Positions 16,635-59,100 of a stretch of 64,000 nt of DNA are shown piece after piece. Under the pieces are notes generated by a model that was given only the letters and a program-made list of their open reading frames with translations, searched no databases and was not told where the DNA came from. This DNA is from a virus. Every line of letters starts with the position of its first letter. The stretch's first letter is position 1. Where the stretch lies: the IMG/VR virus record IMGVR_UViG_3300031957_002677, positions 1-64,000 of that record. One strand, given 5' to 3'. A program made the position numbers and the translations under genes.

Positions 16635-17036
16635 TTATCTTGTTGGTTGTAGTACGAAATTAAGTTCTTGTGGAGAAATATCAAGACCAATAATTGTATA
16701 CCTAATAGTTACTTCATATTCATTACCATCATAATTTGGTATACATTTAATATCGTTAAGTTCAACTCTTGGTTCATTCAACCTGATTGTGGTCGAAATT
16801 TCGTCTTTAATTTGATCAGCAAGAATTGGTGACATGTTATCAAAAAGTAACCTAGAGACTCTAGACCCAATTTCTGGTTGAAAGAATCTTTCACCAGTAA
16901 ATGTCATTACTAAATTGCGAATAGATCTTGCAATAGCAACTTCATTCTTTAACGAAATTAGATCGTTTGTCAGAGGATTTTTACTAAATGTTGAACTTAG
17001 ATCTCTAAATCCTCTACTTACCCTTTCTAACGGCAT
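16635..17036 (-). CDS. 25: Baseplate wedge lysozyme-like protein gp25
   Basis: From the ATG at 17036 the protein has 133 aa, matching T4 gp25 (132 aa). The shared core is FFQPEIGSRVSRLLFDNMSP...EPRVELNDIKCIP (T4: PFDPEFGCDLSDQLFENMTP...EPRI). Gp25 belongs to the GPW/gp25 family that nucleates sheath assembly on the wedge. The frame stays open to an ATG at 17075, which overlaps the upstream gene by 11 bases; I prefer the inner start because the extra 13 residues are not expected in the family. Confidence 0.93.
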   Translation of the reverse strand: MPLERVSRGFRDLSSTFSKNPLTNDLISLKNEVAIARSIRNLVMTFTGERFFQPEIGSRVSRLLFDNMSPILADQIKDEISTTIRLNEPRVELNDIKCIPNYDGNEYEVTIRYTIIGLDISPQELNFVLQPTR

Positions 17037-17064
17037 CAGTACACGCAAACTAGGTATTATCAAC

Positions 17065-17739
17065 CTATTTAGCATCTATATCAGGTAAATTTTCTCTTTC
17101 TTTTGCTGTCTTCCAAAAATATTCATCCTCACGACCCATCCCAAGACGGTCAAAACCGTTTTCAACCTGATAAAATTGTGTTGAAACCTTAAAATCGGGC
17201 ATTTTGGGTTCAACAGGAGTCAAACTATTGTCAAAAATACGCATTCTATTGTTTGGATACAGTGCATACTGCCCATTTTTAAGTTCGATAAGGTTATGTG
17301 ACTTGTGTTCAGCAGGATTTTCACTCGTTGCATAGTCAATAACGTCAGGATCTTGGTGATAGTTGTCTAAAGTGCAAACATAAGTCCCTTTTTGAGTGCC
17401 AAAGTCTCTTGTATACAGTTCATAGTCCATAGAAGCAATAAATTGCTTCTGAACTGCTACTACTCCATAGTCCATACAGTTCCAAAATTGAAGATTTGGA
17501 AGATTCATGTCAGGATCTGGAGTTTTTGGTTCCGATAAAAAGGCACTGATCGGCAATTTATCGTACATTGCCGCATATTCTGGTAAATATGTCTCAAAAT
17601 AAAAAGAACGTCCAGGAATCGACTTTGCCGATACCCAAACGCCCTTAACAAATTCACCATGACCAAATTGATGATCTGTGAGATATTCTTTTCTAACCCA
17701 CACTTCCGTTGATGGAAGATTACATATAAGTGCTGCCAT
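17065..17739 (-). CDS. Conserved cyanophage-type protein of unknown function (224 aa)
   Basis: A soluble 224-aa protein rich in aromatic residues, with no motif I can assign. Notable segments are FWNCMDYGVVAVQKQF (about 125-140) and a Glu/Asp-rich C-terminus. There is no signal peptide or membrane segment. It is the first gene after the small basic protein and lies directly before gp25, sharing about 11 bases if gp25 uses its upstream ATG. It may belong to the baseplate operon, but its role is unknown. Confidence 0.75.
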   Translation of the reverse strand: MAALICNLPSTEVWVRKEYLTDHQFGHGEFVKGVWVSAKSIPGRSFYFETYLPEYAAMYDKLPISAFLSEPKTPDPDMNLPNLQFWNCMDYGVVAVQKQFIASMDYELYTRDFGTQKGTYVCTLDNYHQDPDVIDYATSENPAEHKSHNLIELKNGQYALYPNNRMRIFDNSLTPVEPKMPDFKVSTQFYQVENGFDRLGMGREDEYFWKTAKERENLPDIDAK

Positions 17740-19133: not shown

Positions 19134-19285
19134 TCTACACGTTGTATAATTTCTAATTGATCTAAATCAATATCATTCTTTTCTTCATATCTTTCTATTG
19201 CTAACTCATGAAGAATATCTGCTGCTTCCTCATGAGTGACATTAGAATACATCTTATTACCTTGATAAAAGATGTCGATGTTCAT
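19130..19285 (-). CDS. Small acidic protein (51 aa)
   Basis: A 51-aa acidic, mostly helical protein starting MNIDIFYQGNKMYSN and containing HEEAADILHEL. Its ATG abuts the stop of the glycosyltransferase gene with one shared base, and its stop overlaps the halogenase ATG by four bases. This coupling makes it a real gene of the same operon. Function unknown. Confidence 0.7.
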   Translation of the reverse strand: MNIDIFYQGNKMYSNVTHEEAADILHELAIERYEEKNDIDLDQLEIIQRVE

Positions 19286-20058
19286 CAGATTACTCGGGTC
19301 TTTTCATGACCAACACGAATGCGAGGATCACACCAGATCTCGTATCCTGCTTCCTTTGCATCGAGACAGAATGATACGTCCTCTCCACACATGTCTTGTA
19401 CTGCACCAGACTCAAAGACTTGCATCTTAGGAGCAAACCATGGATACTCAAGACCCTCAAAGACTCCGTGCTTAATCAGTACCCATCCAAAACCAGTGTA
19501 GTCAACAGTAAATGGTTTCTTACGATTAGGTAGTGTCTCAATGGTTTCATGATTCATCACTCCACCATTAGAACGGAAATCATCTTCTTCTAACCAATGT
19601 GCAACAGAAGAGGTCTTTCCATCTTCAGTCAGATACCAACCAGCAACAACTTCTTTCTCAGTACCATCAGCAGCAATAGCACCATCACAGAGTTGCCAGA
19701 ACTTATCAGTGTTGAATACAATATCACTATCAATCCATAGTTGATAATCATACTCTAGTTTACCGTCCCAGGGTTTCTGAGAGGGACCTCGGAGTACATT
19801 TGCACCAAGTACCTTACAACGTGCAAAGTTAACCATTGATGAGTAATCTTGACTGATCTGAATACTCATTCCATTCTGTACTAGATCAAAGCACAGTTGT
19901 ACAAAGTTCTTGAGAAACGTAAATGAGCAACCACGTCCAGGTAAACAGAAGACAATCTTCTTACCCTTCATCCGTTCTTTGATTGCATCAATGTCAAACT
20001 CAGCAGTAGCACTCTTTTTCTTTGGTGCATTTGCCTTAACAGTAAATCCTTTTGCCAT
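19285..20058 (-). CDS. Glycosyltransferase-like (GT-A fold) protein
   Basis: After a basic linker of about 30 residues, the 257-aa protein has KIVFCLPGRGCS, a conserved NFARCKVLGANVLRG block and YQLWIDSDIVF with a DxD motif (Asp110/Asp112), the metal and nucleotide-sugar site of GT-A enzymes. The C-terminal GEDVSFCLDAKEAGYEIWCDP resembles the ED-acid region of these enzymes. Phage homologues are usually called hypothetical or glycosyltransferase. It heads an operon with a small protein and the halogenase, transcribed from a consensus promoter, so it may take part in modifying a small molecule, DNA or surface sugar. The acceptor is unknown. Confidence 0.65.
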   Translation of the reverse strand: MAKGFTVKANAPKKKSATAEFDIDAIKERMKGKKIVFCLPGRGCSFTFLKNFVQLCFDLVQNGMSIQISQDYSSMVNFARCKVLGANVLRGPSQKPWDGKLEYDYQLWIDSDIVFNTDKFWQLCDGAIAADGTEKEVVAGWYLTEDGKTSSVAHWLEEDDFRSNGGVMNHETIETLPNRKKPFTVDYTGFGWVLIKHGVFEGLEYPWFAPKMQVFESGAVQDMCGEDVSFCLDAKEAGYEIWCDPRIRVGHEKTRVI

Positions 20059-20081: not shown

Positions 20082-20110
20082 ATTCTATCAGTTTATGTGT
20101 TGTTTGTCAA
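20082..20110 (-). promoter_or_regulatory. Sigma-70-type promoter TTGACA-17-TAGAAT
   Basis: Minus-strand TTGACA (20105-20110) and TAGAAT (20082-20087) with 17-base spacing, in front of the glycosyltransferase gene. The -35 overlaps the stop codon of the upstream 63-aa gene. Confidence 0.75.
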
Positions 20111-20298
20111 TATGATGCTTCGAGCATTTGTTGACGATTTAGTGTCACGACCTCGTATGATAAGTCGTCTACAGTATAGTTAGTCTCTAAAAGACCAACC
20201 ATAGCATTTACAGTATTCCACGTCGTTCTAAAATCATCTTCCCGAATATTTGGAAAGAGACATTTATGCCCTGCGTAGATATGATATAGTGTTTCCAT
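20107..20298 (-). CDS. Small conserved protein (63 aa)
   Basis: A 63-aa protein starting METLYHIYAGHKCLFPNI and containing FRTTWNTVNAMVGLL and VDDLSYEVV. I recall close relatives among small cyanophage proteins. It looks like a compact alpha/beta domain with no catalytic motif. Upstream is a 280-base stretch without genes. Function unknown. Confidence 0.75.
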   Translation of the reverse strand: METLYHIYAGHKCLFPNIREDDFRTTWNTVNAMVGLLETNYTVDDLSYEVVTLNRQQMLEASY

Positions 20299-20578
20299 AT
20301 CGGACCAATTTTTTTCTGCGAAATTTTTTGACGGATTCTGAAACCCATCGACGAATTATATATGCGACCTTACAGGGACGGTTTATACTCTCGGAATTTT
20401 TTTTCTAATCGTTATATCGAACTCTCATTGTCACCTCTGTAGGTTGCGGGTCTCTATGCTTTTTTATATACAACCCCCATAATAACAACAACTGCTGTTG
20501 ACGAACGAATAAGACTGTGCTATACTTAGGAAGGCAGAATGAACTGCCCTCCGTGTTACTTAGTGTAAGTCTTAAGTA
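20299..20578. other. Non-coding stretch with RNA-structure and promoter signals
   Basis: No gene of reasonable size is seen. Minus strand holds an 8-base-pair hairpin at about 20329-20348 followed by A residues rather than U, a TATAAT-like box at 20355-20360 with no clear -35, and a 7-codon reading frame (20405-20428) behind a good Shine-Dalgarno. Plus strand holds a promoter at 20498-20526. The end at 20522-20579 can fold into a three-way junction. Confidence 0.5.
20498..20526 (+). promoter_or_regulatory. Plus-strand promoter TTGACG-17-TATACT
   Basis: TTGACG (20498-20503) and TATACT (20521-20526) are spaced by 17 bases on the plus strand, although every gene here is on the minus strand. It would give an RNA antisense to the 30-aa and 115-aa genes. 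Sequence match is good; activity unknown. Confidence 0.55.
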
Positions 20579-20579
20579 T
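20522..20579 (-). ncRNA. Candidate structured RNA (three-way junction) after the 30-aa gene
   Basis: In the minus-strand transcript, AUACUUA (20579-20573) pairs with UAAGUAU (20528-20522). Inside are two hairpins: ACUUA-CAC-UAAGU and GGAGGGCAG-UUCAUU-CUGCCUUCC. The nine-pair helix is complete only in minus-strand RNA, using one G-U pair; plus-strand RNA would have an A-C mismatch. No U-tract follows, so it is not a classical terminator. It could stabilise or process the 3' end. Confidence 0.45.
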
Positions 20580-20671
20580 CAATACAGTGCTTCAATTGCC
20601 TCAAGAATAAGAAGAATATCATTACCATTCTGTGCGGTTTCGAGTGCAGAGAAGAGATCAGACTTAGACAT
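20579..20671 (-). CDS. Tiny conserved protein (30 aa)
   Basis: A 30-aa open frame, MSKSDLFSAL followed by a helical ILLILEAIEALY end. It follows the 115-aa gene in the same direction and has the look of very short conserved cyanophage proteins. The stop codon touches the base of the predicted RNA structure. Function unknown. Confidence 0.6.
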   Translation of the reverse strand: MSKSDLFSALETAQNGNDILLILEAIEALY

Positions 20672-20734
20672 GGAAAGTGTTAGATAGTGTGTGTGATTGG
20701 TGGGTTTAAAGTCATCACCAGGACTGTTGTAATC

Positions 20735-21082
20735 TTATGCGAAGATGTAACCGTTGGAGAAATCTTCGGTGCTGAATACTTTCTCAGCACCCATCTGTCC
20801 TGTGAACTTTCTTACAAACCACTGATAGTTCTTCTGGAATACACCCTCACCAGCAATGCAGAAAGCATCACATAAGGCATTCAATCTGCTCTTAGTTGTA
20901 ACAGACTGCCAACCACCGTCGAAGATAGTCATCGAATCTTCGTCGATTTCTGCAATCTTGTTACCGTGAAGACGTACAATAGAGACACCAGATTCTGCGT
21001 CAAAATGTACCGAAGTGTTCGCAGACTGCCAGTTCTGATTGTTCTGAACTGCTGCGATCATTTGGGTTTCGATCTTACGCAT
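20735..21082 (-). CDS. Conserved cyanophage-type protein (115 aa)
   Basis: A 115-aa protein starting MRKIETQMIAAVQN with RLHGNKIAEID and TKSRLNALCDAF segments; I recall several related copies in T4-like cyanophages. It shows no membrane segment and no catalytic motif. It is the first gene after compound promoter 21118-21172, with AAAGGA in the leader as a ribosome-binding site. Confidence 0.75.
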   Translation of the reverse strand: MRKIETQMIAAVQNNQNWQSANTSVHFDAESGVSIVRLHGNKIAEIDEDSMTIFDGGWQSVTTKSRLNALCDAFCIAGEGVFQKNYQWFVRKFTGQMGAEKVFSTEDFSNGYIFA

Positions 21083-21117
21083 TAGAGTCGGTTGAGGTGT
21101 GTTCCTTTGACTCTCTT

Positions 21118-21172
21118 ATAATACACGGAAACAGACCCCGATCAACCGACCCTGTGACACTTCGGCAACTGG
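21118..21172 (-). promoter_or_regulatory. Compound promoter (copy D)
   Basis: Minus strand: upstream element CCAGTTGCCGAAGTGTCAC (21172-21154), TTGATC as -35, 16 bases, then TATTAT (21123-21118). The distance from element to -10 is one base off most other copies. It drives the 115-aa gene. Confidence 0.65.
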
Positions 21173-21200
21173 TTTTAATTCTCTATACTTTCCTCACAGA

Positions 21201-21368
21201 TTACCAAAGTGAATCATACTTATTGGAGAGGTCCTCAATATAACTTTCTACCTTCTCTCCTCCTTGCAATTCAAATAACTTTTCCCAGTCAATCTGATGA
21301 GGATTAAAGTCATCCATTGCTTCAATCTCAAGAGTGATGCGATACTTTGTCTTCTGTGCGTAAGGCAT
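21201..21368 (-). CDS. Small protein (55 aa)
   Basis: A 55-aa acidic protein, starting MPYAQKTKYRITLEIE and ending LSNKYDSLW, with NPHQIDWEKLFELQGGEKV in the middle. The start ATG at 21368 lies about 29 bases downstream of a perfect sigma-70 promoter, which strongly supports the gene. The residue pattern suggests one small alpha/beta domain. Function unknown. Confidence 0.7.
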   Translation of the reverse strand: MPYAQKTKYRITLEIEAMDDFNPHQIDWEKLFELQGGEKVESYIEDLSNKYDSLW

Positions 21369-21396
21369 TGTTCTTCGTTGAAATGAGGACTCTGTT

Positions 21397-21425
21397 ATTA
21401 TAGTTCATTCTGAGACTGATGTCAA
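21397..21425 (-). promoter_or_regulatory. Perfect sigma-70 promoter TTGACA-17-TATAAT
   Basis: Both hexamers are exact consensus on the minus strand (TTGACA 21425-21420, TATAAT 21402-21397) with 17-base spacing. It should be read by the host housekeeping sigma factor right after infection. It points at the 55-aa gene and lies at the edge of the non-coding candidate origin. Confidence 0.85.
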
Positions 21426-21497
21426 GAATGTTATAATGCAATTTCAGAATGTTAAAGAATATTTATATCAGGGTTTTCATATTTTTTTATCTGGGTG

Positions 21498-21526
21498 TTG
21501 ACATTTTCTGCAAATCCTGATAGACT
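21498..21526 (+). promoter_or_regulatory. Plus-strand promoter TTGACA-17-TAGACT in candidate origin
   Basis: Exact TTGACA (21498-21503) and TAGACT (21521-21526), 17 bases apart, pointing away from the coding direction and into the repeats and DnaA-like boxes. A short RNA made here could act as a leading-strand primer. No gene lies on this strand downstream. Confidence 0.5.
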
Positions 21527-21538
21527 GCAAGTTAAGAT

Positions 21539-21594
21539 GACTATAAGAGAAGGCATTTAATAGGCATATAAGACTATAAGATCAGGCATTTAGA
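21539..21594. repeat. Two direct repeats, 33-base period
   Basis: GACTATAAGA + two bases + AGGCATTTA + two bases + AGG occurs at 21539 and again at 21572. A partial AGGCATATA lies between. The units are A/T-rich, as in unwinding elements or iterons. Confidence 0.7.
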
Positions 21595-21633
21595 AGGATT
21601 AAAAGGGAATAAGATCATACATTTACATCATTG

Positions 21634-21694
21634 TTTTCCACAGATAATATCACAATAACAGGGATTATACACAGTTTAAGTATACTTTTCCACA
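21634..21694 (+). promoter_or_regulatory. Three DnaA-box-like sites
   Basis: TTTTCCACA at 21634-21642 and 21686-21694, and TTATACACA at 21665-21673, all in the same orientation. The first form is the cyanobacterial DnaA box and the second fits TTATNCACA. Starts are 31 and 21 bases apart, close to three and two helical turns. Confidence 0.55.
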
Positions 21695-21753
21695 GGGTTG
21701 TTGAAAACCTATAAACATCTCATATACATTTAAAATAACATTTATAATTGAAT

Positions 21754-21921
21754 TTAATCAAATAATGGTATAATTTCAGTGTTTTTACACCCTAATTCCT
21801 TTACATAACGTTCCCAGAGCATTGCATCTCTTACATCAAAGAATGTTGCTTCTTGCTTACTCCAATACCCTGATTTCTTCTCTTTCTTGTATACTACACT
21901 GAAACGATTGATCATTGTCAT
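21754..21921 (-). CDS. Small protein (55 aa)
   Basis: A 55-aa protein starting MTMINRFSVVYKKEKKSGYWSK, then EATFFDVRDAMLWERYV. The alternation looks like a small beta-beta-alpha domain. The start at 21921 overlaps the membrane-protein gene by 65 bases; ATG at 21915 and TTG at 21942 are alternatives. It is the last gene of a long operon before the non-coding stretch. Function unknown. Confidence 0.6.
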   Translation of the reverse strand: MTMINRFSVVYKKEKKSGYWSKQEATFFDVRDAMLWERYVKELGCKNTEIIPLFD

Positions 21922-22087
21922 AATGTCGAATAACTCCTGCAATAATAAAGCAATTGGTAATCAGATAAGAGATAAAGATAACTGTTCTAAGTAATGCAAT
22001 ATAATTATCATATTCATTTGTTTTATCATCAGAGAATGATCCTAATGAATACTTCCATATTGTCCAGAGTTTGTGTATATTAAGCAT
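21857..22087 (-). CDS. Small single-pass membrane protein (76 aa)
   Basis: Starting MLNIHKLWTIWKYSLGSFSDD, the protein has one hydrophobic segment at about residues 35-53 (LRTVIFISYLITNCFIIAG) followed by a charged tail, with no cleavable signal. The ATG at 22087 overlaps the oxygenase stop by eight bases. I recall relatives with the same GSFSDDKT and ITNCFIIAGVIRH pattern in cyanophages. Probably an inner-membrane protein; role unknown. Confidence 0.7.
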   Translation of the reverse strand: MLNIHKLWTIWKYSLGSFSDDKTNEYDNYIALLRTVIFISYLITNCFIIAGVIRHYDNDQSFQCSIQEREEIRVLE

Positions 22088-22604
22088 ATACAATATTCAG
22101 TGTCATTCTTAAGTTTTCATCTGTTGAATTAGTTCCCATATGTTCATAAGTATTAGGAAAGAGAATTGCTCTATTTGCTTTACTTTGAACTCTCTTGATT
22201 CTACCTTGTTCATCTCTTATCTGTGTATATCCATTATTATCATTTAACATCAGAATACAAATTTTTAATGATGGGGCAGGGAATGATTGTCCTTCCTTTG
22301 TATCATTATCAATGACATCAATATGATATGGTTTTTCTTTCAATGTGCATCCTTTTAATGTACCATTGACCTTTACTCTTACAATTGAATATAGATCATC
22401 GATTGTATGAATAACGGGCAGGATATCATCAAAGAATTCAGATTGTGGTTGGTATTCATTATAAAAGACATGTACTAATTGAGGAATATCATCATCTTCA
22501 TAAACAGAATAATCTTCATACTCCCATGGAATTTGTTTAGGAATATAACTCATCATTTCTGATAAGTGTTCCTTTGGTATAAAATTATCAATAACTTGTA
22601 TCAT
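22080..22604 (-). CDS. 2OG-Fe(II) oxygenase-like protein
   Basis: This 174-aa protein has the prolyl-hydroxylase-type triad: YHID (His94, Asp96), YEHMG (His155) and LRMTLNIVY (Arg166), with an ILFPN strand before the distal His. Substrate is unknown. Unlike most others here, it is in the accessory small-gene operon and not next to fibre genes. It abuts the 89-aa gene upstream and overlaps the membrane-protein gene downstream. Confidence 0.7.
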   Translation of the reverse strand: MIQVIDNFIPKEHLSEMMSYIPKQIPWEYEDYSVYEDDDIPQLVHVFYNEYQPQSEFFDDILPVIHTIDDLYSIVRVKVNGTLKGCTLKEKPYHIDVIDNDTKEGQSFPAPSLKICILMLNDNNGYTQIRDEQGRIKRVQSKANRAILFPNTYEHMGTNSTDENLRMTLNIVYA

Positions 22605-22874
22605 CTATATCTCCCTTACATATACATCCATTTCTTCTAATGTTTTACCATACTTATTCCTTCTTGTATGAACATACTCCAAATCTTTCCAGAATGGAGG
22701 ATGGCACAATAATAAGGTATGAATATACTTATGCTTCTCATTCTTCGTATACTCACAATTAGGTTTTGGTTTAATACCTGTTTCAATTGTAATGTATAAA
22801 TCATCAACAAAATAAACCCATCCACATTGATCTTTCCATATTACATAATCATCAATTTGTGGTTTATATGTCAT
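22605..22874 (-). CDS. Conserved small protein (89 aa)
   Basis: An 89-aa protein (MTYKPQIDDYVIWKDQCGWVYF...) with an SH3-like beta pattern at the start (YVIWK..GWVYFVDDLYITIE) and a HTLLLCHPPFWKDL segment. It overlaps the upstream gene by four bases (ATGA) and ends right before the oxygenase ATG. No catalytic motif is seen. Function unknown. Confidence 0.7.
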   Translation of the reverse strand: MTYKPQIDDYVIWKDQCGWVYFVDDLYITIETGIKPKPNCEYTKNEKHKYIHTLLLCHPPFWKDLEYVHTRRNKYGKTLEEMDVYVREI

Positions 22875-50019: not shown

Positions 50020-52121
50020 CAAAGCATGGTCTCCCTTACTACTCTATATGTAACAATTCCACTCACCCCAGTTTCTGGTGTCCATTGTAATTCACAAGTT
50101 CCAGCATTTACAGTTGCACCAACAGAAACTAGAAGATCATTATTATACATGATCGCATATTCTTGAGCATATGCTGTAGTTCCATCATTCATCACAAGAA
50201 CTTTTTGAGATTGAATTCCAGATGAATGTTGGAAATATAATGTATATTCTGCAGTCTTAAAGTCATCAGTTGCAATTACCCAACCAGCGTCACCTGTTGT
50301 AGTAACACCTGCTGTTGCGGTGAATGATCCATAGTCAGTGTAAACACCATAGACTTCTTCAACTTGTAGAGGTGTTCTTGGATTTATAGTTCCAACACCA
50401 ACCGAACTTACCGTAATATTAGGAGAACCACTCAGTCCCGTTGAATTGCCAGTTACATCACCAGTTAACGGACCATTAAATGATGTCGCATAAAGTGTTC
50501 CAGTTACAGTAGCACCTGTACTAATAGTTTCAAACTTCTTAGAGTTATTATAGAAAAGACTTACACCAGCACCCACTCTAAAGGATGCCATCTCTGCAGT
50601 AGTTCCATATTGTCCAATAGTAACGGATGGATTTGCGTCAATGTTAAGACCACCACCACCTTGATCTTGGATATAACTATTTGTACCATCAAAGTAAATT
50701 CTTAGGTCATTACCTGCACCAAAGATTGCCTGATCATTATTTCCAAGTTGAATATTATTCTGGAATGTTACTTCATCAGTAAATGTAGAAATTCCAGTTG
50801 ATTGTAATCCACGTGTACTCGTAACACCAGCATTAGAGAGTTGACCAGTAGAAGGATTATATTGTAGTTTTCCACTCAGATCATATCTATTAAATGTATG
50901 ACCACCTTGGGTTGGATCAAGGAATAGTGCAAGATCATAATCATCACTATTAGATACACCTGCAGTAAAGACTTTGTGCTGACCAACTAAGTCACCATCA
51001 AATCCAGATGCAGTAACAATACCAGCATATTGTGCTCCACCATCAGAAGTAATCGTAAGAGATGTACCAATTCTAATTTCATCATTAATACCATCAATTG
51101 TAATACTGGATGAACCAACTGTTAAAATTCCAGTAATTCTTGCGTCTCCATTGACCCAAAGTTGAGTTCCAGCAGCACCTACAGGACCAATTTCTGTTTG
51201 GAATCTTGGATTTGTTGTCCCCAAACCAACTGCAGCAGTATCAGTAAAGATACCGACAGCAGCATCACCATTGAGTAATCCAAATACTCCTGATGGACCA
51301 CCAGAACCTTCACCTAGTCCAACACCATAATCTACAATATTGAGAGTAGAAATACCAGTGATATTGGAACCATCACCATGAAATTCTGTTGCAGTAATGA
51401 CACCTACACCTGCAATACCTCTATTGTTTAGATCTAAGTATCCACCAAGTTGTGGTGATGGATCAGAAAGAACATCTGTTAGACCACCAGAGTCAATGTA
51501 TGCAGTGACCAGACCTGATGTTCCATCTAGAGTAACACCTAGACCAACAAAGTCGAGGATTTGAATTCTGCCAGCAGTTCCACTATCAATACCTGCCTTT
51601 CTAACAGAAACACCAAGAATACCAGTGTTTCCTGCACCGACAGATGCAACACCGTGACCAATAAGTTCTACCTCTTCACCACCAAATGCTGCAGCAAACA
51701 GTGTGATAGATCCACCACCAGGATTAATTGCATAATCACCAGCAGTAAGTTTTACACCATCAAGGAATACACTGGTTAGATCCGTTTCTGTAAGTATGAA
51801 TGAACCAAAAGTTCCAGTGGCAGGAAGTCTAGTTTGTCCTGCAGTAAGTGTAAATATTTCTGTTTGTCTAGAGACTGGAAATGATTCCCATCTCCACTTA
51901 TCTCCAGTAGATTGTAAATATTGACCAGTTACACCACTAGTGCCACCAGTTGATACGGGTGAAAATAATGCACCATCAATAGCAGCATCACCGATGACAT
52001 CCAATTCATGTTCAGGTGTTCCTGAGTTAATACCAACACGATTAGTTTCATCATTTGCATATAACAAGGTATTCGCAACTTCAATACCATTGCGAACGAC
52101 AAAATTCTTGTTAATACCCAT
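50019..52121 (-). CDS. Virion fibre protein (700 aa)
   Basis: Starts MGINKNFVVRNGIEVANTLL, a fibre N-terminus known from cyanophages, then repeats such as GVITATEFHGDGSNITGIST and GIVTASGFDGDLVG, a FGAGNDLRIYFDGTNSYIQ block and a C-terminal LQWTPETGVSGIVTYR domain. Gly/Thr-rich and beta-structured; no enzyme motif. The leader has AGGAGA before the ATG and a G-rich hairpin just upstream. Translationally coupled to the protease. Confidence 0.8.
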   Translation of the reverse strand: MGINKNFVVRNGIEVANTLLYANDETNRVGINSGTPEHELDVIGDAAIDGALFSPVSTGGTSGVTGQYLQSTGDKWRWESFPVSRQTEIFTLTAGQTRLPATGTFGSFILTETDLTSVFLDGVKLTAGDYAINPGGGSITLFAAAFGGEEVELIGHGVASVGAGNTGILGVSVRKAGIDSGTAGRIQILDFVGLGVTLDGTSGLVTAYIDSGGLTDVLSDPSPQLGGYLDLNNRGIAGVGVITATEFHGDGSNITGISTLNIVDYGVGLGEGSGGPSGVFGLLNGDAAVGIFTDTAAVGLGTTNPRFQTEIGPVGAAGTQLWVNGDARITGILTVGSSSITIDGINDEIRIGTSLTITSDGGAQYAGIVTASGFDGDLVGQHKVFTAGVSNSDDYDLALFLDPTQGGHTFNRYDLSGKLQYNPSTGQLSNAGVTSTRGLQSTGISTFTDEVTFQNNIQLGNNDQAIFGAGNDLRIYFDGTNSYIQDQGGGGLNIDANPSVTIGQYGTTAEMASFRVGAGVSLFYNNSKKFETISTGATVTGTLYATSFNGPLTGDVTGNSTGLSGSPNITVSSVGVGTINPRTPLQVEEVYGVYTDYGSFTATAGVTTTGDAGWVIATDDFKTAEYTLYFQHSSGIQSQKVLVMNDGTTAYAQEYAIMYNNDLLVSVGATVNAGTCELQWTPETGVSGIVTYRVVRETML

Positions 52122-52177: not shown

Positions 52178-55100
52178 TATATCTTGGATACGCATTTCCA
52201 CAGTTGTCTCTTGGATTTCCACCACTTCTTGATCCACCAAGATTACTTTTGATAGTATTGTACATACTGTCTAGAGTGGGATATCCTGCAGGATTATCTT
52301 TAAATCGATTATACCAAACTTTGACTTCATCACCAGTTGCTGGCCTCGCTTGATCATCCCAATATGCTCTATTAATTCTTCTCATAACATCAACTTTATT
52401 TGCTCTTGCAAATTCAATATAATATTTAATAACTACAAGTCCATCTGCACCTCTGCCACCACCATTACCACATCCACCACCAGATCCACCTCCACCATAG
52501 GTGTTTCCAGACGCACCTTCTTCTGTTCCTTTTTCTTGTCTATTACTTCCTCCACATCCACCACCAGCATCAGTGCCTTGTCCTGGTCCACCTTGATCGC
52601 ATGGTTTTGAACCAGGATCTGCCTGTCCAGAAGAACATTGCCCACCATTCATCCTAGCGGCACCACCACCATGCCCACCTTCATCACCTCTTCTACCACC
52701 ACCAGAACGTCCAGATGAACCACTACCTTGGCCACCTCCACCACCTCCTCCATTATTTTCACCACCACCACCACCACCACCACAACTTGCTCTGCTGCGT
52801 TGTCGAGCTCCTCTAATTTCGATGAAAGAAGATTCTCCAGGATCTCCAGAACCAGCATTACCACCCTTACCATTACCACCTCTACCGGCCCAGAATGTAA
52901 CTACATCTCCACCCTCTGCTTGATTCCATTCGACATTAAAGGATCCAGCTCCTCCTCCTCCACCACCACCTTCATTTTGATCTTTTCCACCACCACCTCC
53001 ACCAGCAACTCCTTTTGCTTCTATTCTTGCAGTTCCTTGAGGTAGAGTAAATGTTGAATTCTTTTGATTTGAAAATCTATCTACAGTTCCTGAAGTACTC
53101 TGTTCTCTAGCTCCTCCAGTTGTTCCACTACAATTACTAAGACCCATGAAACCCATGATATTAACACCATAATTGTTGAGGAATCTCCTAGTTTTTAATG
53201 TACATCCAGCAAGACCATATGTACCATTTTCTACTGTACAACTTTTTGTTCTTACTGAGAAGGTTTTACTAACTCCACCAATGTTCATTGTGGCAGTTTT
53301 TGTAGAGCTGAAAGAACTAGATGCATTCATCTTAATTCTTAGATCGTTACAAGAAGTTCCATTCGATACAATTTTTGTGGTTCTTCCATTAAGGAATGTA
53401 GCACCACCACCACTAACTTTAGCAGTTACACTTACACCAGGAGATAGACCATGAACAAAGTTTACGGGAGAAGAAGTAAATCTTGGTTGAGATTCTCTTC
53501 TTTCACCAAGATTTCGGTTAGTTTCACTTGATGGATTCATATTATAATTATCAACAGTTGTATCATCAATTACTGTTACTGTGTCACTTGCGGTATCACT
53601 CTCACCACTTCCATTATCCTTAACCGTAATAGACCAAGTATAATTTCCATCTTGACTCATAGTTGTGGTTTTTGAACCACTTAGAGCACTAATATTATTA
53701 AAATCTTGACCACTACTAGAAGTTACTAAATCAGCATCAGTAGCAGACCATGTGATGGTTACAGGATTGCCAGTAATTACATTTGCAGGTGTTACATTTA
53801 AAGTAACTGTTGGTTTAAATCTAAAAATAATAGTTTTGGTAACTGTTTGAGGACTTACTCCAGCACCAGTTGCTTTTGCAGTATAAACTTCACCATCAGA
53901 CGCAGGAGTTACTGAGTCACTACCACTTTGTTTATTGGAAGTATTAAATCCACTTCCACTAGTAGCTTCTACTTTAATTGCATTAGTTGATGACCAATAT
54001 AAAGTTGCATTACCACCTCTCTGAATATTAAATGATGTGGGACAACCACTTGTGGGAGGATTTCTATTAACACAGAAGAATAATGTCGGTGCTGGTGGAG
54101 TTCCAGTAATAACATTAATTTGATCTGTTGCGCTTCCAGTACAATTAGAAACAGTTAATTTAAATGTACTTTGCCCACTTGCTAGATCTGATACTGCCCT
54201 ACTTCCACTCTTTGTTTGATCACCAAGAGTCGTAACTGGAATACTACTCAAATTACTAAATCCACCAGGACCAGTGGCAGTTACTGAACTGTTAGTAACA
54301 TGTGTATATGAATATCTAATTGTAGTGCTTCCTCCATCTGGGAAGACAAACGGTGGATTAAGATTATCTGCAGTTAGATTTAATGTTGGTAGTGGAGGTG
54401 CTTTTGGTGATATTGTCCAATTAGCACTTTTAACAGAACCAGGTGTTGTGAATGCTGCAGATAAACTTACTGTTGTAGTTCTAGTGCTACAATAGTATGG
54501 AGTTGTCATGTAGACTTGAACGACATCTCCAGCAACAAGATTACTTAATGTTGTGCCTTGCTGAGTAGTTCCTTTCTTCTTAAGGAATGAGTTGGCATTA
54601 GATGTAGTTGCAGAAATATTACAATCAAATTCAAAACTTCCATTAACTGTAAATTCTGTACTTGCCTGTTGACCAGGATTTAGTGTAGATGATGCTTCTG
54701 GTATATTTGGGAGACTAAAACTTGTGACTCCACAATCTCTTGCTTTTGATGTTACATTCCAAGTGTCTGATGTGGATCCATTAACTCCAGTAATAACATT
54801 AAATGTATTTGTTCCAGCAATAGTAAATGTAGCACTTCTCGTTCCTTGAGATGCTGTTGCTGACAATAGTCTTAATTGAATTTGATCACCAAGTTGAACT
54901 CCAAATGAATTCTTAGTCCAACTTCTTACTACTGATCCATTTCTAGTAACTTGATATTGTGAAGACTCATTTCCACCAATACTAGCAGTGCCTTCATCAC
55001 CAAACGCAGTCATACCTGCTAAGGTAATTGTATTACTATAAATTAATTCATTTCTGAGTACGTTATTTTGATCAGTAAAAGTAAATTGATTTGGGATTGT

Positions 55101-56197: not shown

Positions 56198-59100
56198 TTA
56201 CTGATATTGAGATTGTGAGTACAGAACATCAAAGTCAGTTACTGGATCACCAGTATTTGATTTCCTGACCAACACATAAGTATATAGATCTATACTGTTC
56301 GCATTTCCAGTATTTATAGCTAATGAACCATAGTATCTTGGAGACATTCTAATGTCATCAATATAAACTTCATCATTATAATATGGTGTCGGACCCTGTT
56401 TTGTAGTGATCGCAACTGTGATAGACTCACTAACTTCTAAGAATTCAGTCAGTGCAAGTCCCGCACGTGCTCTCATATTCACTGCCCAGTTATCACCAGC
56501 ATCTTGTGTGAAGTAGTAGATAGAAGATTTATCTAGATCAGCATGAACAATTGTAGTGCCGATACCAATGACTGTAGAGTTGTCTAGAGTAGTGTTTTCA
56601 ATGATTTCAAACACCTTCATGGTGCCTCTAATCTCTGCGTTTCCTTCAACATACATGGAAACGTCTGCTTTGGAACTATTTGTAGAACCAAAACCTACAT
56701 TACGAGTAGTGTGAATACCTGTTGCATCGATTGCCCAGATATCAGACACGTCATAGAGACCAGATCCATCACCAGTAAATGTACCAATGAAGTATCCACC
56801 AATCTCAAACACATCTGTTTTATTGGAAATAGCACCCCAAGGATACCAATCATTATCAGTAGTATAAACCCAACCAGCATTTTGACCTTTGAATGGGTTG
56901 CCGTTAAAGATAATATCACCTGGGTTTCCTGCACCCTCTCCGACAAGTTCAACAGAAGATGCTGGTTGAGTAACACCTACAGTATACTTCCTAGAAACCG
57001 TCTCTTCACCTTGTAGGAATAGACTTGGAGATTCTAATCCTTTATTTGATGTAACAGTAAGTTTATTATTAACAAGAAGTGGACCATCAAACTGTGAAAT
57101 AGTAGTTTTACTATCACCACCATCAACTCTTACAGCATCAGAGACATTAACTTCGGATGCTTTGATGACATTGAATCCAAGTTTAGTATCTGGAATCTGC
57201 TTAGATTCACCTCTAAATCTAGGACGTGGTGTGGAGAATACTTCTTCATCACCTGCAGTAGTAATGACTCTCTTATTGGAGATATAGAAGTCACCATCAC
57301 TATTCATACCAGTGTAAACAACAAATCCACCTTCTTCTTGGAATGATTGGGAAAGAACTTCTTCCGAAGCACTCAGTTGACGATCATGACGATCTGGGAA
57401 CGCAGTAGAATAGTTACCAGGACCATAACCAAGATATTCAAATGTATGACCAGAAGCACGAATAATAGAATGCCTTCTTAGTTCTACTGGTTTTGCATCA
57501 ATCCTTCTGAATGCGGATCCACTGATATGTGATTCTGCTTGTGTTCCTAAGAGACCTCTGTAAACCTGAACTGGATTTCCAGTCACAGTTTGCTTGACTC
57601 TCATGATTTCACTATCAATAAGAATAAAGTCACCAATTTTCAAATCAAGATCATCAAGATCGGTAATATTCATCGTACTATCAAGTTTTGTCATTGCTAA
57701 TGCAAGACTTCCATAAAGATTACCATATGGAATTGAAAGTCTGCTGCTGAAACTTTCATCACCTATAGTAATTTCTCCACCTTTAGCACCCAACGTAGTG
57801 GGATATACTGCTGGTGATCCACCAAGAGTAACAGTTGCTAATGTTGAAATTCCGACATTGACAACAAGTTCAGTTAGTGAATCAACTCTCTGAATTAAGA
57901 ATTCTCCATTGAATGCTTCACTATCTCCAGTTGCACCACCAATCAAAACACGATCATTAACTTGCAATCCGTGTGGATTAATTCCTGTTGTAAATGTAGC
58001 AATACCAGTTGCTGGTGTGAAATCAGAATTGGTGATATTAAATGCTGGTCCGTTTAGATATGCAAATGCGTCTGATGCATTTAATTCACCAATTCCACTG
58101 ATTGTAGAACCAATACCAACTGAAGTAGCAGATATTACGTCAAAACTATTAGTTTCTCCAACACTAAGATCATTGATTTGGTATGTGGTATTATAATCCT
58201 GATAAAGGTCACTAACTCTTTCAATACTAATAGAGTCACCAATGTTATTGTAGACTTTAGTTACTCTTACAGAACCTGCAGTATGACCTGTTGTTGTCGC
58301 AATACCAACAACAGACATAGTGTTTCCTACACCATATGCAGAACCACCATCAATAATTTGAATACTGGCAAGTGTACCAGCAGATGATACCTGAACTCTT
58401 GCAGTTGCTTTATCACCAGTAACTGATCCACCATATCCAATCAATTCTGCATTATAAAGGTTTTCAGTTACACCAATACCAGATCCATAATTGGATCCTG
58501 GATCAACAATCTCAACCTCTATAATTCTATTAAGTCCGTGATCAGATTTTGTAAAGATCGTATGTCTATAACCATTAACCTCATCTTGAGATAAGATATC
58601 AGTAATTCCAATACCAATACCATTATTTTCTAATTTGGAAATTACTGTTTCTTTAGTAATACTCTTTTCTGGATCATTGATAACAACCTTACCAATCGGA
58701 TCCGCAACAGCAAAACATCTTGCAGGATCTGGATCAGATTTTGGATTATCTCTATCATACTCTGGATATAAGTTATCAAGAGGTTGTGATAGTTTTACAC
58801 CAGTAAATGGTGAAACATTTGGTGTATTTGATGAGTTAATGATAGTTAAGTGATATACACCATCCTGCTCATTCTGTACATATCTTTGAATCTCATCTGA
58901 TTTGTATACAACAAAAGTTCCATTGTGCTTTTTCTTCTTAAGTTTTGGAAGATTTTGATTACGAATAGATGTATCACTCGTAAAATCACCTGGATTTGTT
59001 AAAATATCAATTTTAAATTCTTTTCTAGATACAATATTATCTACAATAAATGTACCATTAAATCCTAGATTTGCTTTTCCTGTGGTGTTAAATCCACTAA

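Follow-up and report, generated by a model that had tools for sequence, protein, structure and literature searches.

A conserved promoter and DnaA-box element upstream of gp25-gp6 in T4-like cyanophages is a candidate early replication origin

At the phage T4 origins oriF (ori uvsY) and oriG (ori 34), a promoter and an A/T-rich unwinding element are sufficient, and synthesis is primed by an R-loop that the transcript forms (PMC3016281). A third origin, oriE, has an early promoter, 12-nt direct repeats and a primer RNA that is antisense to gene 5 (PMC3016281). In the T4 record it lies just upstream of 5.4-gp6, in the baseplate cluster. We found no DnaA boxes in the T4 oriE region, and the T4 review makes no mention of DnaA (PMC3016281); the T4-type replisome is therefore not known to need this protein. 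In cyanobacteria, TTTTCCACA has been described as the DnaA box, and dnaN adjoins the origin (PMC4674748). For the T4-like cyanophages, which are abundant in the sea, origins do not appear to have been mapped, and the only statement that we found is the prediction of a single theta origin for Syn9 (Weigele et al. 2007, as cited in PMC2984593). A search of full texts accessible without subscription returned no paper that deals with DnaA boxes at the origins of cyanophages. Here we describe a candidate cyanomyovirus origin, recognised from sequence comparison, whose new aspect is that a T4-like origin layout appears to be combined with sites for the host DnaA.

The DNA analysed (the window) is a stretch of 64,000 nucleotides that forms part of an 89.8-kb virus record. 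The best match to positions 20400-22800 in the phage collection is Synechococcus phage S-SCSM1 (71% identity over 91%). Given this match and the presence of gp25 and Kyano_Gp96 genes, we assign the window to a cyanomyovirus (Kyanoviridae). The element and its surroundings are listed in Table 1.

Table 1. Features of the element and of the neighbouring genes in the window
Feature	Position	Strand	Remarks
gp25 baseplate wedge, then gp6	16635..17075	-	syntenic landmark downstream of the element
Kyano_Gp96 (T4-GC 637)	20735..21082	-	syntenic landmark in several reference phages
55-aa gene, phrog_12516	21201..21368	-	flanks the element; a homologue also flanks the S-SM2 element
Consensus sigma-70 promoter, leftward	21397..21425	-	TTGACA-17-TATAAT, 12/12; upstream of the 55-aa gene
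Extended -10 promoter, TTGACA-N14-TGATAGACT	21498..21526	+	points into the boxes, against all neighbouring genes; conserved in relatives
Two 33-bp direct repeats, initial transcribed region (GACTATAAGA..GGCATTTA)	21539..21604	+	similar repeats in relatives
DnaA box 1, TTTTCCACA	21634..21642	+	motif match
DnaA box 2, TTATACACA	21665..21673	+	motif match; 21 bp ahead of box 3
DnaA box 3, TTTTCCACA	21686..21694	+	nearly invariant in alignment of relatives
Inverted near-box 4, TTTTCAACA (TGTTGAAAA on +)	21699..21707	-	13 bp past box 3
A/T-rich tail, candidate DNA-unwinding element	21709..21788	.	conserved in alignment of relatives
62-aa gene, phrog_13220	21754..21942	-	flanks the element and reads towards it

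A first-pass annotation had proposed a replication origin with cyanobacterial DnaA boxes in this interval. As an observation it is confirmed, as all of the features that it described are present, and was indeed understated. Two copies of TTTTCCACA (21634 and 21686) and one of TTATACACA (21665) share one orientation on the plus strand within 61 bp, and the former motif is the cyanobacterial box described in PMC4674748. The direct repeat with a 33-base period is real, its copies (21539-21571 and 21572-21604) being 79% identical. The plus-strand promoter reads TTGACA-17-TAGACT with a TG extension and matches the consensus at 10 of 12 positions; as had been noted, it has no gene on its strand, where no ORF of at least 40 amino acids occurs at 21500-21950. 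The annotation did not include the inverted near-box at 21699-21707 or the perfect (12/12) minus-strand promoter at 21425-21397, owing to which the interval sits between divergent promoters. Two statements do not hold: the interval is not the only longer non-coding stretch, as 20349-20734 is also free of minus-strand ORFs of at least 40 amino acids, and a DnaA-box cluster, thought to be unusual for a T4-like phage, is common among cyanomyoviruses.

Two observations concern the surroundings of the element. A second strongly conserved non-coding element lies at 20385-20475; it reads TTGTCACCTCTGTAGGTTAGGGTAGTT in the majority of relatives, with 276 matches across the collected loci. An Rfam search with this element gave no match, and its minus strand resembles a leader (AACCTACAGAGGTGACAA) that would belong to the small ORF 20107-20298. 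The neighbouring gene at 22080-22604 carries the phrog_274 label DNA endonuclease V, whereas its counterpart in S-SCSM1 is annotated as a 2OG-Fe(II) oxygenase.

The motif TTWTHCACA is not enriched in the window overall, with 7 sites found and 10.6 expected, yet 400 sequences of 64 kb simulated with a first-order Markov model never contained three same-strand sites within 61 bp. The unusual feature is thus the clustering and not the total count. The 80 bp that begin at 21709 are the second least stable stretch of that length in the window. The position of near-box 4 is occupied by TGTGGAGAA, TGTGGAAAA or TGTGAATAA in relatives.

The promoter is retained in S-SCSM1, where TTCTCCACA and TTTTCCACA are found near each other, the latter being the sole copy in the 229 kb of that genome. 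Weak blastn matches led to the same element with boxes in S-SM2, P-TIM68 and S-BM3, and to RB11-B, S-B43 and Bellamy, where the promoter is present without strict boxes. A search motif for this first promoter class (TTGACA-N14-TGATAGAnTGCnnGCnnAGATnAC), which ignores the boxes, retrieved 116 stretches from IMG/VR and a second form of it another 12; removal of near-duplicates left 84 clusters, including the window and the reference phages. Exact TTWTCCACA occurs within 260 bp in 41 of the 84 clusters, with a density 91.5-fold that of the DNA around them. The boxes are oriented like the promoter in 68 of 83 cases, and 28 of 33 same-strand spacings are 20–22 or 41–44 bp, corresponding to two or four helical turns. 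The significance calculated for this set presupposes independence and serves only as a description. The distance from the -35 hexamer to the first box often takes values of about 71, 105 and 136–139 bp, which would fit zero, one or two extra copies of a 33–34-bp repeat. The exact long pattern of the window's boxes is too specific a query and had no match in IMG/VR. In elements of the P-TIM68 type (L006:2644-2667; L206, L209) an inverted pair of TTTTCCACA is located approximately 200 bp upstream of the promoter, in place of the downstream boxes or besides them.

Strict boxes also cluster at the corresponding region in Syn9, S-PM2, S-ShM2, Syn19, S-SM1 and Syn1. Here they sit behind a related promoter, TTGACAnnnGnTAGGnnnCnYGCTAAG, with gp25 located 5–8 kb downstream of the cluster where this gene was placed; the S-BM3, Syn19 and S-SM1 loci were placed by the promoter and neighbouring sequence and not by gp25. 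Across the cyanomyoviruses the element lies a few kb upstream of gp25-gp6, and its layout is preserved there in divergent genera. A promoter-only search for this second class recovered 32 non-redundant clusters, every one of which contains exact boxes (32/32, 91.9 times the surroundings). In the typical layout TGTGGAAAA stands 23 or 31 bp behind TTTTCCACA, and elements of the Syn9 type have mainly inverted pairs at these distances. Syn1 has three boxes at 12-bp spacing, a spacing that also occurs in S-PM2. Public annotations overlay the box cluster with tRNAs or tiny ORFs in S-PM2 (19177-19333), Syn9 (52477-52635) and S-SM2 (57997-58101); the tiny ORFs are probably spurious.

The two classes together comprise 116 non-redundant elements with an approximately 90-fold excess of exact boxes over the surrounding DNA. 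Loss of the boxes in relatives had been named in the first-pass annotation as an argument against an origin. The origin proposal survives this comparison: many cyanomyoviruses have the boxes together with the promoter and the A/T-rich tail at a single syntenic locus, and exact boxes accompany 73 of the 116 promoter matches. The boxes are not universal, as Bellamy, S-RSM4, P-SSM4 and S-B43 keep the promoter without them. Among 18 reference genomes, pairs of TTWTCCACA within 100 bp are confined to the element locus, where they occur in nine genomes, Syn9, S-PM2, S-SM2 and Syn1 among them. Close pairs of TTTTCCACA are found in five of eight whole genomes, always at this locus, and none of 500 control 9-mers of the same composition forms close pairs in more than two of the eight. 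Chance, or shared ancestry without function, would agree with a total box count in the window that is not above expectation. However, it is contradicted by the more than 90-fold local enrichment, the fixed position, the phasing and the failure of the control 9-mers, and we consider it extremely improbable. Pairs of TTTTCCACA in IMG/VR number at least 120 at 21-bp spacing, at least 120 at 12-bp spacing and 30 at 16-bp spacing. Judged by a generic promoter criterion, only 13 of 123 listed 21-bp pairs and 23 of 122 listed 12-bp pairs fall inside elements of the type described here; phased DnaA-box pairs thus occur in many other phages and are not specific to this type.

Exact boxes are absent from 43 of the 116 non-redundant elements, so that DnaA cannot be a requirement in all cyanomyoviruses. 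S-RSM4 (140227-140325) and P-SSM4 (50955-51094) keep a promoter of the second kind and the tail, with other motifs between them. Box-less clusters among the 84 of the first class contain AGTAACTnCGAAGAC repeats, TTATTGAGAA sites, GGATACTATCC palindromes or other repeats. The cassettes seen at individual box-less loci (L090, L170, L108, L109, L153, L097, L114, S-RSM4 and P-SSM4) include TTATTGAGAA, GGATACTATCC, TATGTGCCCCACAT, GTGTTACACAT and GATACGAATTCATATC. No recognisable element was found in the stretch of P-HM2 inspected, and the P-SSM2 and S-SSM7 loci lay outside the survey. From this pattern, the box region would seem to be a binding-site cassette that can be replaced within a constant frame. 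This may point to a modular origin, where the promoter and the melting tail stay constant and enclose an exchangeable initiator-site cassette composed of host DnaA boxes in most lineages and of TTATTGAGAA, GGATACTATCC or AGTAACTnCGAAGAC elsewhere. We tentatively raise the possibility that a single large group of lytic phages exploits the initiator of its host and has changed initiators more than once at an unchanged site.

The exchange of cassettes also bears on a role of the boxes as a decoy. Such a cluster could soak up host DnaA and stop initiation on the host chromosome in the manner of datA, with no phage initiation at the element, and exact host boxes in a compact cluster that is multiplied with the phage genome copies are what such a role would call for. 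However, titration leaves unexplained why a promoter directed into the boxes and an A/T-rich tail are conserved, and why boxes are swapped for other repeats while both flanks are kept. There are also few boxes per genome, and we think this role unlikely.

The boxes could alternatively be sites of a phage-encoded protein that reads TTTTCCACA, with no involvement of host DnaA. The other repeat cassettes in box-less relatives give some reason to consider this, as if each came with its own protein. However, the phage box is identical to the box upstream of dnaN in the hosts. In 24 picocyanobacterial genomes for which upstream sequence was available, the 450 bp ahead of the dnaN domain contain 14 exact copies of TTTTCCACA, whereas the other parts of these dnaN loci contain none, and near-copies upstream of dnaN are, as in the phages, often 21 bp apart. 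The host boxes were inspected upstream of dnaN because five host genomes contain no TTTTCCACA pairs within 30 bp. Additionally, the DnaA_C domain (PF08299) is absent from all 19 phage records searched, a search that is blind to an unrelated fold; the control search found the domain in 10 of 14 genomes, including Synechococcus elongatus. Recognition by a phage protein alone is in our estimation very unlikely.

A promoter of this strength with no gene on its strand could also produce a noncoding or antisense RNA early in infection. Host DnaA, bound downstream, would regulate its promoter or its elongation and so link the expression of the phage to the cell cycle of the host. We examined the element for signs of a functional RNA. 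An Rfam search of the region gave no match above threshold, and RNAalifold, run on 17 homologues, predicted a consensus fold free of pairs. Boxes 3 and 4 form the only inverted pair, which shows no compensatory change and pairs no better than shuffled sequences. What is conserved are boxes that resemble protein sites and are spaced by helical turns, which favours a function at the level of the DNA, and a melting tail would not be needed for transcriptional control. We regard this explanation as improbable.

GC skew, which had been suggested as a check on the origin, lends it no support. In eight whole phage genomes the skew is dominated by gene strand, and the five in which the position of the element is known show no turning point there. 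The measure is only weakly informative, both because of this dependence on gene strand and because T4-like phages switch to recombination-dependent replication. The origin proposal is partly upheld: it survives comparison with relatives, GC skew adds nothing to it, and the locus stays a candidate origin.

The element resembles T4 oriE in having an early-type promoter that is antisense to the genes, in its position upstream of gp6 and in its cluster of evenly spaced short direct repeats (12 bp in Syn1 and S-PM2, 21/42 bp in others). However, the T4 repeats differ in sequence and are not DnaA boxes, and the visible 24-bp repeat near T4 oriE lies inside the coding sequence of gene 5, whereas the cyanophage repeats are non-coding. 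The parallel is thus a likeness of layout, and homology of the two loci is only putative. A promoter followed by a putative A/T-rich unwinding element, here known from sequence alone, is also the arrangement of oriF and oriG. Those T4 origins use MotA middle promoters, in contrast to the host-type sigma-70 promoter with a TTGACA -35 in the cyanophages; cyanomyoviruses lack motA (PMC2984593). The box TTTTCCACA and the 21-bp spacings among boxes and near-boxes are shared with the cyanobacterial oriC, and a cluster of boxes of the host consensus next to an A/T-rich region is the arrangement of DnaA-dependent origins. Unlike oriC, the phage element is not beside dnaN, its promoter points into the boxes and, if it is used at all, it would work with a T4-type replisome. 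It also lacks the GC-skew switch of DnaA-dependent origins, a weakly informative difference. As with the theta origin predicted for Syn9, to the extent that it is described in the citing paper, the element would be a single predicted origin in a cyanomyovirus.

Considering these comparisons, the element is likely a cis-acting early replication origin of cyanomyoviruses that is assisted by host DnaA. It may best be read as an oriE/oriF-like origin with host DnaA sites in the role of iterons. In the mechanism that we propose, unmodified host RNA polymerase would start at the promoter opposing the gene strand, and host DnaA would bind the phased boxes, most of which begin 60–140 bp downstream of the -35 hexamer. 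The bound DnaA would help to melt the A/T-rich tail, and the transcript could provide the leading-strand primer as an R-loop, by analogy with T4 oriF and oriG. A T4-type replisome would then load at the element and start replication there, to be superseded later by recombination-dependent replication.

With a defined locus of approximately 250 bp in S-PM2, Syn9, S-SM2 and P-TIM68, the question of the cyanophage origin becomes directly testable, and the variants without boxes provide a natural comparison of how origins change their initiators. If host DnaA is used, a T4-type replisome would work with a bacterial initiator, an arrangement not described in the T4 review (PMC3016281), and replication of these phages would be linked to a regulator of the host cell cycle.
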